This document shows positions 17,113-32,200 of a DNA stretch of 33,634 nucleotides, one piece after another. The position numbers were made by a program, and so were the translations under genes. Source of the stretch: a virus; IMG/VR virus record IMGVR_UViG_3300043466_001197, positions 1 through 33,634 of that record, one strand, 5' to 3'. How positions within the stretch are numbered: the first letter of the stretch is position 1; the number at the start of each line of letters is the position of its first letter. The notes beneath the pieces were generated by a model. It ran no database searches and was not told the DNA's origin. It saw only the letters and a list, made by a program, of their open reading frames with translations.

Positions 17113-17515
17113 CAGCCACCTTGCCTTCGCGCTCTATCTTTCAAATATGCCACGATTGCTTCAAAAATCCCCGGTGGTGCATCCAATAAGGAAACCGGGT
17201 CAATACCTGTTTCAGCCGCGATTGCCGCAATCGTAAATGTTAGGCTTTCGCGGTGGATTCGAAAGAATCGTCAGAAATCAACTCCACAGAAACAAGTGAA
17301 TCAAGAAATTCATCACCATAAGGTTTGAGAACTTCACCACTTCGTTTCACTGCTTCGTAAGCAAGGAAATACAAAATCTCCATGCGCTGACTTTCAAGTG
17401 CTTTTCCTATCCCCATTCCGAACTTCTGTTCGCAAGCCACGATGATTCGTGGGCTTAGAGGATAGGAATCGCTCTTGTCATTCTTTCGATTGACCTGAAT
17501 TTGTAAGCCATCCAT
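17112..17515 (-). CDS. Tail assembly chaperone long form via -1 frameshift
   Basis: After the short chaperone stop at 17240, the -1 frame is open from before 17243 to TGA 17114-17112, encoding LTFTIAAIAAETGIDPVSLLD and a helical rest ending KDRARRQGG (43 codons from CTA 17243). No start codon is present where needed, and its stop overlaps the next gene as TGATG. Programmed frameshifting between two chaperone ORFs ahead of the tape measure is near universal in long-tailed phages. The likely slip lies in GCGAAAGCC just before the stop (-1 reading C-GAA-AGC), with TCTTTCGAA further upstream as an alternative. Confidence 0.75.
17240..17515 (-). CDS. Tail assembly chaperone, short form
   Basis: 91 residues from ATG 17515 (MDGLQIQVNRKNDKSDSYPLSPRIIVACEQKFGMGIGKAL). 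It is helical with an acidic C-terminus (SLVSVELISDDSFESTAKA). Located between the major tail protein and the tape measure gene and followed by an out-of-frame extension, it fits the gpG-type chaperone that coats the tape measure protein before tail tube assembly. The pattern 'R.iv.fE...g' and 'e....LAY.A.kr' is typical of chaperones in actinophages. Confidence 0.82.
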   Translation of the reverse strand: MDGLQIQVNRKNDKSDSYPLSPRIIVACEQKFGMGIGKALESQRMEILYFLAYEAVKRSGEVLKPYGDEFLDSLVSVELISDDSFESTAKA

Positions 17516-27594: not shown

Positions 27595-27772
27595 GTCCGT
27601 TTTTTCCTTTTTGTTTTTGTTGTCATAAAAAATCACAAATAACACATAAATCCGAAATCATAAATTCTGAGATTTTCTGCGTTATTGGGTACGCGGGGTC
27701 TTTGTCGGTTATACAACCCGCAAAATAGGCGGGTACTGGGGGATGCCCGGAAGGGGGTATATGTGGGGGTTT
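27595..27772 (-). other. Non-coding interval between HNH and terminase genes; candidate cos/promoter region
   Basis: The 178-base gap has no convincing ORF. It is GC-rich near 27720-27772 (runs of five or six G on the plus strand) and AT-rich near 27600-27670. A six-pair stem ACCCGC/GCGGGT with a seven-base loop (27716-27721 with 27729-27734) is the clearest structure. On the minus strand TTATGATTT, TTATGTGTTATTTG and TTTTTTATGAC form AT-rich tracts that could hold a promoter for the terminase. An HNH gene next to a small terminase is typical of cos-type phages, so the cohesive-end site may lie here. No sharper call is possible. Confidence 0.45.
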
Positions 27773-28063
27773 CTACCTTCTGCCCGAATTGTGACTTCTG
27801 CACAAAACGCGAAGATTTGACCAAACCGAAATGCCGCCATCAGACAAAGGAATGATGTGGTCAGTGGTGAGGTCTTTGGTCGTGCCGCACATTTCACAGA
27901 AGGGATGGGCGGCAATCATTTCTTTTGACATCTTCTGCCACGCCGACCCATAACCTCTTTGAGTTGATGATGGGCGATTGCGTTCTTTGATTCGTTGGCA
28001 AGCTGTGCAACGTGTTGAACGTGTGAGCGATTGGCAGTCCACACATGGACGATTCATCTTCAT
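27773..28063 (-). CDS. HNH endonuclease
   Basis: 96 residues from ATG 28063, overlapping the endonuclease VII stop as ATGA. Zinc knuckles CVDC (7-10) and CTAC (19-22) come first, then FCEMCG (55-60), TTDHIIPLSDGG with D68-H69, N83 (SNLRVLC) and H91 (CRSHNSGRR), i.e. the full HNH fold with its structural zinc. In long-tailed cos phages such an HNH protein next to terminase stimulates specific genome cleavage in packaging. The upstream in-frame ATG at 28153 is rejected. Confidence 0.92.
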   Translation of the reverse strand: MKMNRPCVDCQSLTRSTRCTACQRIKERNRPSSTQRGYGSAWQKMSKEMIAAHPFCEMCGTTKDLTTDHIIPLSDGGISVWSNLRVLCRSHNSGRR

Positions 28064-28594: not shown

Positions 28595-28848
28595 TTGCCA
28601 ATCAACTCCAACCTTGCATCCAATAATCCATCAATGAATTGATTGATGATTTCTTTTTCTTTTGGTGTGAAATCCAAGAAAAGTTTTGCTGTTGTGGCAT
28701 GGTTCAACGCTTCATCCACTTCTTCAATGGAGATGGGAAAGGATTGTTGAGCCATAAGAAACCCCAAGAAATGTTTCGGTGATAGATACACCCTAAGCGC
28801 TGCAATTGTAGCATAGAGTTGTGACATCACTTCGTTTGGTGACATCAT
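28591..28848 (-). CDS. Hypothetical helical protein (85 aa)
   Basis: ATG 28848 overlaps the stop of the HTH gene (ATGA). All-helical by look: EVMSQLYATIAALRVYLSPKHFLGFLMAQQ, EEVDEALNHATTAKLFLDFTPKEKEIINQFIDGLLDARLELIGK. No motif seen. In the replication/nuclease stretch. Confidence 0.68.
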   Translation of the reverse strand: MMSPNEVMSQLYATIAALRVYLSPKHFLGFLMAQQSFPISIEEVDEALNHATTAKLFLDFTPKEKEIINQFIDGLLDARLELIGK

Positions 28849-29618
28849 GATGAAACGAACTCTTGCCTTCGTGCATCCATGATTTGATGAACATTAAACT
28901 TCCCGCCGACCTTCTCAATCCCATGTTTGCGAATGATGCGATACACCTGCCGCTTGCTTACTCCCAACCACAGACAAATGGCTTGGATGTCCAACATGAA
29001 TGGTTTGCTTCTATCGGTGGCAACCACCGCAATCAATCGAATCACTGACCAGTAAGTTCCACAGCGGCGGCATTCGATGTCAGCTTCAAGGTCTTGCGCT
29101 TCCACTAGCAGCGGGGTTCCGCAGGGAACATCCTCATCAATCTCAGCGGGGCATGGGATGCGCCTTGGGGTTTCGACATATCGGCGAGCAGCTACCATCC
29201 CGCGACTGTGGATTGTTTTGACTTCATCAAAGAAATCTCCAATCCAATCCTTTTGGATTCCCCATGTCAGATGTATCAGATGGAAATTGCAGGTCTTCTC
29301 CACTTCTCGCTCGACCTTATCGGGCGGAAGCAATCCAGGTTTGGTCAGTTGCAGCTCATCCCGAATCAGGGATTCCCATGACCAAAGGATGCGCAGCATT
29401 TCGGTGGCCATACTGAAATCCAGGGCAGTGACATTGATGCCAATCGAACGCTCCGATGGTCTGCCACCTTTGCCGGTTCTGACAGGTTCAATGAAGAATC
29501 CCGCTTCATGATGCAATCCTGGAAGGTCGCGAAGATAGACCCGAAGTCTAGATTCGCACTTCCTGCAAAGATAGGTTTCTTCTTGGTTGGTGTTGCGCTG
29601 GCACTTTTGACATTCCAT
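28845..29618 (-). CDS. Zinc-ribbon and helix-turn-helix DNA-binding protein
   Basis: 257 residues. An N-terminal zinc ribbon (C3, C6, C18, C21 in MECQKCQRNTNQEETYLCRKC), a helical middle (ATEMLRILWSWESLIRDELQL), a second metal site (IPCPAEIDEDVPCGTPL with IECRRCGTYW), and a C-terminal winged HTH resembling excisionase/MerR types (LDIQAICLWLGVSKRQVYRIIRKHGIEKVGGKFNVHQIMDAR, about 205-250). This arrangement is found in a group of actinophage proteins placed near the primase. It should bind DNA; regulation of replication or of the late operon are options. Start overlaps the preceding stop as TAATG. Confidence 0.8.
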   Translation of the reverse strand: MECQKCQRNTNQEETYLCRKCESRLRVYLRDLPGLHHEAGFFIEPVRTGKGGRPSERSIGINVTALDFSMATEMLRILWSWESLIRDELQLTKPGLLPPDKVEREVEKTCNFHLIHLTWGIQKDWIGDFFDEVKTIHSRGMVAARRYVETPRRIPCPAEIDEDVPCGTPLLVEAQDLEADIECRRCGTYWSVIRLIAVVATDRSKPFMLDIQAICLWLGVSKRQVYRIIRKHGIEKVGGKFNVHQIMDARRQEFVSS

Positions 29619-29995
29619 TAGAACGGAATCCTTCCATCATCATCGCCGCCGCCGGTTGGCTTCTGGCGTTTGCCAAAAAATTCTTGATGCTTTGCCATCG
29701 CCCGAAGGCTGTGGCAGCGATGCTCTGCCAGAACCACGAATGACCCGGCGCTGTTGTTGATGACTTTCTTGTGCCACCAGTTCACTCCATAGGCATCCCG
29801 AATCGAAACCCAAAACTGCCCGTTCGATTCCGGCTGGCACAAATAGGTCATGCACCCTTCTTCAATCGCTTTTGCTTCTTCAAAATAGTTGAGTGACTTG
29901 GCATCAAGTTCAATCAGAATCTTCCCGCGAAAGTACCCTGACCAAACTGCGGCGCGGCAACTTTTACACCAAGAAGATTGGAAAACATCATCCAT
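29618..29995 (-). CDS. Hypothetical Cys/His-rich protein (125 aa)
   Basis: The frame is open from a TTG at 30067, but that part covers the palindrome of the iteron region, so it is doubtful. ATG 29995 (MDDVFQSSWCKSCRAAVWSGYFRGK) is chosen; a GTG at 30034 after GGGGGGGAAT is the alternative. The body has WCKSC, YLCQPESNGQFWVSIRDAYGVNWWHKKVINNSAGSFVVLAEHRCH, likely a small metal-binding domain, and a Gly/Asp-rich C-terminus (PTGGGDDDGRIPF) resembling acidic tails of ssDNA-binding proteins (DDDxxPF). That tail and its position right after the iterons suggest a role at replication forks, which is inference. Confidence 0.65.
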   Translation of the reverse strand: MDDVFQSSWCKSCRAAVWSGYFRGKILIELDAKSLNYFEEAKAIEEGCMTYLCQPESNGQFWVSIRDAYGVNWWHKKVINNSAGSFVVLAEHRCHSLRAMAKHQEFFGKRQKPTGGGDDDGRIPF

Positions 29996-30023
29996 GAGAG
30001 ATGGCCAAATTCGCCGCTTCGGG

Positions 30024-30136
30024 TATTGACCCACATTCCCCCCATAGGGGGGGGAATGATGGGTCAATAGAAACCCCTACGCCTTGCCACTTTATTGACC
30101 CGCTATTGACCCATTGACCCGCACTGTGGGTCAATA
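30024..30136. repeat. Iteron cluster: six TATTGACCC elements with a nested palindrome
   Basis: TATTGACCC occurs at 30024-30032, 30093-30101 and 30104-30112 on the plus strand, in reverse form (GGGTCAATA) at 30061-30069 and 30128-30136, with an eight-base copy ATTGACCC at 30113-30120. The first two copies are the outer arms of a longer inverted repeat that continues inward through CATTCCCCCC (30034-30043) and GGGGGG...AATG (30047-30058). The cluster starts right after the stop of the primase-helicase gene. Iterons of this sort mark replication origins or multi-site operators. Confidence 0.75.
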
Positions 30137-32200
30137 CTAAATGGAAACTGAATTCAATGGTTGCCAAGGTTCATCTCCTTCGTTATCGCGAAGCCATGTG
30201 AACAATTTCGCCCTACCTTTTTCCCGATAGCCAAGCAATCCATCATTCGCCAGTGACATCAGCGCAGCTTTGACCGCATCTGTTCGATGCGGGATTTCCT
30301 CGCTCATAAGGATTTGATTTTGGGTCATTTCAGTTCGATGGCTTTTCATGTATTTGAGAACTGCCGAACGGACAATCTCGCGTTTGTCTGGCATCGCTTC
30401 CGGTGTCGCACCGGCGAAGTGGATGCCCACGCCATCGCCATTGGAAGCAAGATGAACTGTTCCCAATTGAGTGGCTTCAAGGCAGATGGCACGCACGAAG
30501 CCAGGGCGGTCTTTCGTGACCTTCAATCGCAACTCACCAGAACCACCCCGACCAAATGGCATGACCATCTCCACCGCAATCGCGCAGCCGTCAATGTCAG
30601 CACGTTTGGCTTGTGCGCCGATGGCATAGTTCCCGCGTGAATCTTTGGATTTGGTAACGTGGTCAATCGTTACCACCGCAGCACCAAAGTTGCGAAGCGG
30701 GCGCAATACCATCTGCGAGAAGTAGGTGGCATCCTTGTTCTTCTCCAAATCAAGACCCATCAGATTCATCGCCGCATTAACACCATCCACCACCACCAGC
30801 GTTGGTTTGCTTTCTTCCAACGCCACCTGAAGAAAATCCCGAACTGCCACATCAAAGGCATCATCGGGATTGGAATACCGGAAGGTGCGCAGATGACTTT
30901 GTTCGATTCCTAGCGCCTTCAATCGGCTTCGGATGCCATGCCGCGAATCTTCAAAGTCAAGATAGAAAACAGGATTGCCTTCCATCAGTTGTTCGACTAC
31001 CGCAGCGAGCGCCACCCACGTCTTTCCCGATTCACTTTCACCAAACAGCGCATTGATTTTTCCGGGATAGAAAACCGCATTGCCATCTTCCCGGCGGAAG
31101 ATTGTCGGCTGGATGTCCTGCCCGTCATCTTCCCAATCCATTTCATGAGGAATCCAACTGGATTCAGGTTTGGGGTTTCCTTCTTCATCCAGCGGTGTTA
31201 TCAAAGCAGGTGAGGAAAGAACGGGGGTTGCCATCGCGATTCCGCCGAAACCCATCTTGCGAAGTTCTCTGGCAGCTGCGCGGAAATCTCCTTGATGTTC
31301 TAAGTGCGCGAAAGCTGCAAATTTTGAATAAGGTTTCTCTGCTTCAAAGGTCGTGCTAGTGGTGAAGACAAACAAATTGTCACCGCCGTTGCGACCTGTG
31401 GTGGCGCTGATGCCCGTTTCTTTTCCAGGTCTGCGCCAATAGGTCGTTCCTTTTGCGGTGAAGACTTTCTTCCAACCAAGCGGTTCGAGTATTTGCTCCC
31501 ATTGCACCCGCTGGTTGTAATCATCACCGGGCGAAAGCGTTCCATCATTGCTTGGCGCAATCTCATGTTTGATTGCTTCGACCTGTGGCATCGAATCGAA
31601 TGCATGGAAGATTGCGTGCAGCGCTTCTCGTTCTGCCAAGGTCAATGTCGGAATGGATTCTGGCGAACCATGCAAGATTTTCCATGCGCCGCCCGATGGA
31701 TGAATGGCACCGGCAGATGGCGCAACAATCACAAATCCACCTTCGCCGCGTGTTTCGACTAGAACTTCCACGCCGCCGTTCTCACCTGGTCGGCGGGCAA
31801 TCTTGGTGTTGCCGGGAACTTCTCCATCGCTGATGCGATACAACCAATGCAATCCGCCCGATGGTGTCACTTCGATGTATCCATCATTGATGGTTTTCCA
31901 AATGTCAGCAAGGCCGCTGGCGGCGGCGATGTCGGCGGCTTGTTCGTGGATTCCTTCTGCCACTGCGCGACCTTCAAGTTCCAGCATTTCCAGATTGCCG
32001 CTGACCTTGCCGCAGATTAGCCCCAGGCCATCTTGCGGTTTGGAGAACCACCGCATCAAATCATTTGCTTCAGGTTGGCGTTCTTGATATTTCTTCCAGC
32101 TATCAATGCCCGGTCTTTTGCTGCCGTCATTTGCAACTGGCACAACAGAGATGCCCGCCGTTGCAAACTTCAGCGCTTGGGTCAGAATTTCTTGGCTCAC
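30137..32200 (-). CDS. Bifunctional primase-polymerase/RepA-like helicase
   Basis: 687 residues. Residues about 5-175 form an archaeo-eukaryotic-type Prim-Pol domain: GLICGKVSGNLEMLELEG with Glu74 and Glu76 where many members have Asp, SGGLHWLYR (114-122) and ETRGEGGFVIVAPS (149-162). Residues about 365-560 form a RecA-like (AAA_25) helicase: Walker A GESESGKT (387-394), FYLDFED (412-418), LVVVDGVN (468-475) and the DHVTK arm. The C-terminal about 60 residues look like a winged helix (HRTEMTQNQILMSEEIPHRTDAVKAALMSLANDGLLGYREKGRAKLF). The GTG start has AGGGAGAA upstream. It should prime and unwind phage DNA, probably with host polymerase. Confidence 0.9.
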   Translation of the reverse strand: MSQEILTQALKFATAGISVVPVANDGSKRPGIDSWKKYQERQPEANDLMRWFSKPQDGLGLICGKVSGNLEMLELEGRAVAEGIHEQAADIAAASGLADIWKTINDGYIEVTPSGGLHWLYRISDGEVPGNTKIARRPGENGGVEVLVETRGEGGFVIVAPSAGAIHPSGGAWKILHGSPESIPTLTLAEREALHAIFHAFDSMPQVEAIKHEIAPSNDGTLSPGDDYNQRVQWEQILEPLGWKKVFTAKGTTYWRRPGKETGISATTGRNGGDNLFVFTTSTTFEAEKPYSKFAAFAHLEHQGDFRAAARELRKMGFGGIAMATPVLSSPALITPLDEEGNPKPESSWIPHEMDWEDDGQDIQPTIFRREDGNAVFYPGKINALFGESESGKTWVALAAVVEQLMEGNPVFYLDFEDSRHGIRSRLKALGIEQSHLRTFRYSNPDDAFDVAVRDFLQVALEESKPTLVVVDGVNAAMNLMGLDLEKNKDATYFSQMVLRPLRNFGAAVVTIDHVTKSKDSRGNYAIGAQAKRADIDGCAIAVEMVMPFGRGGSGELRLKVTKDRPGFVRAICLEATQLGTVHLASNGDGVGIHFAGATPEAMPDKREIVRSAVLKYMKSHRTEMTQNQILMSEEIPHRTDAVKAALMSLANDGLLGYREKGRAKLFTWLRDNEGDEPWQPLNSVSI

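Follow-up and report, generated by a model that had tools for sequence, protein, structure and literature searches.

A repeat cluster directly behind a PrimPol/RecA-fold helicase gene as a probable replication origin in a group of phages

Introduction

Nearly all genes of the virus record analyzed here (33,634 bases; hereafter the window, i.e., the whole stretch of DNA under analysis) lie on the minus strand, and six copies of a nine-base word are crowded into 113 bases straight behind one of them, a gene for a PrimPol/RecA-fold helicase. This arrangement raises two questions: whether the cluster is the site where replication of the phage starts, and which protein reads the repeats. A preliminary description, made from the letters alone, had proposed an iteron origin or a cooperative operator, with an adjacent zinc/HTH protein as a candidate binder. 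In iteron-type origins, a DnaA box is frequent, not universal, and an AT-rich unwinding region is expected beside the repeats; plasmid iterons often double as autoregulatory sites. In P4, the alpha protein binds iterons at ori and crr.

Results

The repeat cluster

The copies and coordinates given in the preliminary description were correct: five copies are exact, one matches in eight of nine bases, and the orientations are mixed (Table 1). No base separates the cluster from the TAG stop of open reading frame 30137-32200 (-). In the direction of transcription, TATTGACCC comes first, then three GGGTCAAT[A/G] copies, 23 bases of spacer, and two copies in inverted orientation that tip the arms of a hairpin. 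With three tandem direct copies, an inverted one and a pair facing each other around the hairpin, the label "iteron" fits only loosely. The hairpin arms are 20 nt long and 80% complementary, and the predicted DNA fold of 30020-30140 has a z-score of -5.9. The spacer is possibly a site for strand opening or priming; a GGCAAGAG-like word is found at this position in several other clades. The gap that holds the cluster, described earlier as the one sizeable gap of the replication block, is indeed sizeable (141 bp), but the gap at 27645-28060 (414 bp) is larger, the only one in that block to exceed it.

Table 1. Coordinates of the cluster and of the genes around it in the window
Feature	Position	Strand	Remarks
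Repeat 1 in transcription order, TATTGACCC	30128..30136	-	Directly behind initiator stop codon; conserved in L002, one base different in L005
Repeat 2, CATTGACCC, 8/9 match	30112..30120	+	Same in L002 and L005
Repeat 3, exact, one-base overlap with repeat 2	30104..30112	+	Same in L002 and L005
Repeat 4, exact	30093..30101	+	Same in L002 and L005
Conserved 23-base spacer, AAGTGGCAAGGCGTAGGGGTTTC on - strand	30070..30092	-	No difference among the three close relatives
Repeat 5, exact; outer part of hairpin 5' arm (- strand)	30061..30069	-	
Repeat 6, exact; outer part of hairpin 3' arm (- strand)	30024..30032	+	
Hairpin, inverted repeat with C-run/G-run core	30024..30069		Loop of 6 nt; repeats 5 and 6 form the tips of the arms
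Initiator gene, 687 aa	30137..32200	-	PrimPol, residues 9-183; RecA-fold ATPase AAA_25, 379-519 (Pfam); C-terminal winged helix
C-terminal winged helix of initiator, residues about 606-669	30194..30385	-	Putative repeat binder
Small gene starting just past the cluster	29618..29995	-	phrog_10480
Zinc/HTH protein gene	28845..29618	-	phrog_908, phrog_1467, phrog_1568

The densest repeated 8-mer of the whole genome is the one in this cluster, with 6 copies versus a null maximum of 3 (250-bp windows). Outside the cluster, TATTGACCC occurs without mismatch just once more in the window, at 17197-17205 (-). Allowing at most one mismatch, there are 16 matches to TATTGACCC in the window, whereas 100 shuffles gave 4.8 on average and never more than 10. 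The 8-mer ATTGACCC occurs outside 30020-30140 as 8 scattered single copies (1-1.4 expected), none of them clustered, and 4 of the 8 are in-frame Ile-Asp-Pro codons. As side observations, the copy at 17197-17205 sits in the intergenic gap 17113-17239, and the excess of scattered ATTGACCC copies is weaker in two close relatives than in the window.

Several other signals were sought. On inspection, the gap contains no clear AT-rich unwinding stretch and has the GC-rich hairpin instead; no DnaA box was found in the cluster of the window or in its clade. A DNA similarity search of the cluster against phage and plasmid collections gave no significant match. Cumulative GC skew, suggested earlier as a check, showed no turn at 30 kb in the window and is uninformative, because almost all genes are on one strand. 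The 13-nt inverted ends at 30023-30035 and 30125-30137 raised the possibility of a tiny mobile element, which was ruled out, given that the segment is found in a single place and its position is shared.

The initiator

The motor of the initiator matches Pfam AAA_25 and, weakly, RecA/KaiC, and a fold search leads to KaiC, RecA and RAD51. The C-terminal domain is modeled as helix-helix-helix-strand-strand with a core pLDDT of 83-89, the prediction for a classical winged helix, and its fold matches are to Hop2, BlaI and ArsR-type folds. The winged helix evolves far more rapidly than the motor: identity is about 25% in the former versus 53% in the latter.

Conservation in close relatives

The cluster is at the same position in three close relatives. 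Two IMG/VR relatives, L002 and L005, with initiator proteins 93% and 90% identical to that of the window, have the same segment. Between the window and L005, 131 of the 141 bases in the gap are identical, 108 of them consecutively, compared to 50% identity at fourfold-degenerate sites of the adjacent gene. A recent exchange of the segment alone might also produce this identity, but the exchange would have to end at the same borders; of the two readings, strong selection is the simpler.

Occurrence across related loci

The survey covered the best 80 of 437 IMG/VR candidates, obtained with an ATPase-domain alignment, and one locus from a MinS1 search; 78 loci were testable, and the sample leans to closer relatives. 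Among these 78 (from the best 80 of 437, plus one), at least three copies of one 8-mer lie between -260 and +520 relative to the stop in 76 loci, and at least four copies lie in the same region in 65. Control blocks of equal size (n = 552) included 32 with three copies and none with four. Since the loci are related by descent, their counts are not independent; dereplicated with a cutoff of 85% nucleotide identity, they come down to 25 lineages, all of which have at least three copies and 22 at least four. The main motif is represented by 341 copies inside clusters versus 11 outside in 540 kb, which is below the random expectation. Scanning the genome and its relatives, proposed earlier as a check, showed a cluster confined to this site: the motif is not equally dense elsewhere, and the repeats are conserved in related phages.

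The repeat words are clade-specific (ATTGACCC, TCGGTCAA, ACTTGACC, AACCGAACC, CCGTTCCG, ACTGTTCC, ACCGATAC, ACCGATCC, CTCGTCCC), and the anatomy is constant across clades: direct copies and one inverted copy are followed by a spacer and by a hairpin of C-run, short loop and G-run tipped by an inverted pair. The shape of the hairpin is kept with other stem letters, with compensatory changes between clades. A perfect DnaA box (TTATCCACA) adjoins the repeats in 25 loci, which belong to three motif clades; it is at most 20 nt from the stop and sometimes inside the last codons of the gene, versus 2 such boxes elsewhere in 514 kb. Among the traits of iteron-type origins, several copies of a short word that adjoin the initiator gene and are confined there were found.

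About 15 loci have the repeats and the hairpin within the initiator reading frame, where translation gives a repetitive tail of the type NLTDLTD...DRNLTDFAPPYKGGRSVKSV; in L037, L038, L040, L047, L048, L059, L072, L074, L075, L079, L083, L089, L091, L099 and L100, the cluster occupies the last ~150 bases of the gene. Coding or noncoding, the DNA segment is retained, which serves as an internal control. A similar translated tail, EPVGEPVGEPV, is present in Dagobah (L020), and the initiator gene of Actinomadura terrae (L118:4994-5153) has nine translated GGAACCAC copies within its final 260 bases. In seven loci (L049, L058, L063, L066, L067, L071 and L094), an extra stretch precedes the repeats, 150-290 bases past the stop; in L049, this stretch is a small open reading frame with cysteine pairs.

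Farther afield, seven of eight more distant loci from actinobacterial genomes have a cluster. So do the named phages MinS1, Dagobah, Karkharias and PeggyLeg03, as well as P8625; in MinS1, Dagobah and P8625, it is at the same gene end. Bridgettevirus phages have a cluster, too, but the argument from the winged helix is not extended to them because their initiators end in a different C-terminal sequence. Not every PrimPol phage obeys the rule: no clear cluster was found behind the gene in Zuko, Hendrix, Rasputia, Dulem virus 38 and phi40:1. In Zuko and KimJongPhill, direct repeats (CGGAACAG, CAGAACGC) are found in a divergent gap of ~750 bp upstream of the primase operon (L025:1192-1938, L026:1297-2047), possibly a different layout of origin or operator. 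Two loci, L084 and L095, truly lack the cluster though they keep the same winged helix; at L084:4969-5200 and L095:2633-2860, it is replaced by another sequence, similar in both. Most other loci that seemed to have no cluster have one, either within the translated end of the gene or past a small open reading frame that has been inserted. Among the other hits of an IMG/VR search for the motif with no gene anchor, three (L003, L006, L007) are tandem direct repeats and L008 resembles repetitive coding sequence; these were judged from their sequence to be unrelated and were set aside.

Coupling of the repeats to the winged helix

Similarity of the motifs tracks identity of the winged helices when helicase identity is allowed for (partial r 0.45, permutation p 0.001; reverse 0.24). 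The clearest case is that of L041 and L042. Compared to L043-L046, these two loci are mostly 90-100% identical over 1.6 kb of the gene. Identity drops to about 50% over the codons of the winged helix and to 40-56% over the repeats; behind the cluster it is back to 89-98%. Compared to L050-L052, they match at 81-100% across the winged helix and the repeats. Judging from these identities, the winged helix and the repeats have evidently been replaced together, as one cassette, in an otherwise foreign backbone. It should be noted that the swap counts as one event because L041 and L042 are nearly identical, and that the argument for coupling puts much weight on this single event. Taken with the correlation, it suggests that the repeats are read by the winged helix of the initiator itself.

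Discussion

We consider it very probable, at roughly 85%, that replication of the phage starts at the 113-base cluster directly behind its initiator gene and that the winged helix of the initiator binds this origin. From comparison of sequences, we infer binding, unwinding, priming and origin firing at the cluster. The C-terminal winged helix would bind the nine-base repeats, both the tandem three nearer the initiator gene and the inverted two at the base of the hairpin. This binding would load the ring of the RecA-fold motor, which may open the DNA at or near the C-run/G-run hairpin, and the N-terminal PrimPol domain would then make the first primers. In the sister clades, host DnaA probably assists via the adjoining DnaA box. 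Some points weigh against this reading: the cluster of the window itself has neither a DnaA box nor a clear AT-rich stretch, GC skew has no turn there, L084 and L095 have the winged helix but no cluster, and such clusters may function in autoregulation as well.

The origin half of the "origin or operator" that had been proposed is thus backed by the position of the cluster and its confinement, by repeat words that covary with the winged helix, and by the perfect DnaA boxes of sister clades; the binder suggested at the time is not supported. The operator half, taken as a cooperative operator on which a phage regulator controls the genes from 29995 downwards while replication starts elsewhere, is improbable. 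It would account for the location of the cluster in the gap ahead of the next gene start and for TTGACC, which is near a -35 word, within several copies; besides, plasmid iterons are often autoregulatory as well. However, the coding strand of the gap has no sigma-70-like promoter, the ~15 loci that translate the cluster in frame exclude a simple promoter region there, and no copies lie ahead of other genes. Furthermore, the repeats move with the winged helix of the initiator, and DnaA boxes adjoin the cluster. More improbable still is binding of the repeats, as origin or operator, by the zinc/HTH protein. Its gene is kept beside the cluster in 36 of 89 loci, including the group of the window, and has a weak match to phrog_1568, a DNA-binding family; but good clusters occur without it in the TCGGTCAA clade, the ACTTGACC clade and those named actinophages that were tested, so it is not the general binder, and the swap in L041 and L042 is explained by the winged helix of the initiator alone.

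We attach very little credence to the least probable reading, in which the segment, at the end of the initiator transcript, acts as a structured RNA or terminates transcription. The strong predicted fold, calculated as DNA, and the compensatory changes that keep the hairpin between clades would be expected of such an element. Yet no terminator was called in the segment, there is no T-run behind the stem, and the segment gave nothing above the family threshold in Rfam, only sub-threshold chance matches. Moreover, the repeats outside the hairpin, which need no RNA structure, covary with the DNA-binding domain.

The design of the putative origin is already known, because SaPI Rep, SCCmec Cch2 and pRN1 share the layout. 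As outlined in PMC7581432 (citing Ubeda et al. 2007), the C-terminal domain of SaPI Rep recognizes a short-iteron origin directly downstream of its own gene. The window likewise has its repeats straight behind the initiator gene; a C-terminal DNA-binding domain is predicted for the initiator, and in L041 and L042 this domain was exchanged together with the repeats. Unlike the window, which is a phage, SaPI is a satellite island, and its relative Cch2 is placed by the same outline in the D5/MCM-like group (PMC7581432), whereas the motor here is of the RecA fold (AAA_25) and is fused to PrimPol. The C-terminal domain of SCCmec Cch2 binds direct repeats just downstream of its gene, and the CCPol-MP primase favors start sites within that origin (PMC7581432). 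That system differs in having separate primase and helicase, a 3'-to-5' Cch2 helicase and only three 5-nt iterons, and no C-run/G-run hairpin like that of the window is described for it (PMC7581432).

In pRN1, the ORF904 gene encodes PrimPol, SF3 and winged-helix domains, and a required stem-loop element of about 100 nt is directly downstream; its authors proposed the same arrangement for phage BIP-1 (PMC4234260). The window shares with pRN1 the combination of PrimPol and C-terminal winged helix in one protein and the stem-loop directly behind the gene. However, it has no SF3 helicase but the RecA fold instead, and the stem-loop of pRN1, which has no iterons, shows lower conservation than the sequence on either side, in contrast to the strong conservation of the letters in the window. 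The origin of RSF1010, in the part of PMC4234260 that treats RepA, RepB' and RepC, combines iterons with short stem-loops at which a dedicated primase makes primers, and RepA is the unwinding helicase. In that description, RSF1010 is a plasmid with three separate proteins, of which RepC binds the iterons; in the window, a single polypeptide seems to hold all three functions. What differs from the known systems is the fusion of a RecA-fold motor to PrimPol and the combination of the repeats with a conserved C-run/G-run hairpin, and also the breadth among uncultured phages and the natural cassette swap. Among open-licence papers, we found none that describes the origin of this phage group.

We would give even odds to a broader proposal, namely, that initiator specificity in this widespread group resides in a cassette of winged-helix end, repeats and hairpin, which is exchanged between phages as a unit and drives a fast diversification of the origin words, perhaps as a guard against cross-recognition by co-infecting relatives; the motor would be a RecA-fold PrimPol helicase, whereas self-contained origins of this sort are known with SF3.

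These results suggest a rule by which the origin could be placed by sequence in many uncultured phages, at the 3' end of the gene for a PrimPol/RecA-fold helicase. They also point to the protein domain expected to read the origin, and the natural hybrid predicts which half sets the specificity. The pairs of ~10 repeat words and winged helices make up a set for studying how such a domain chooses its DNA. Swapping the cassette would act as an incompatibility switch if this is how co-infecting phages keep clear of each other's origins.
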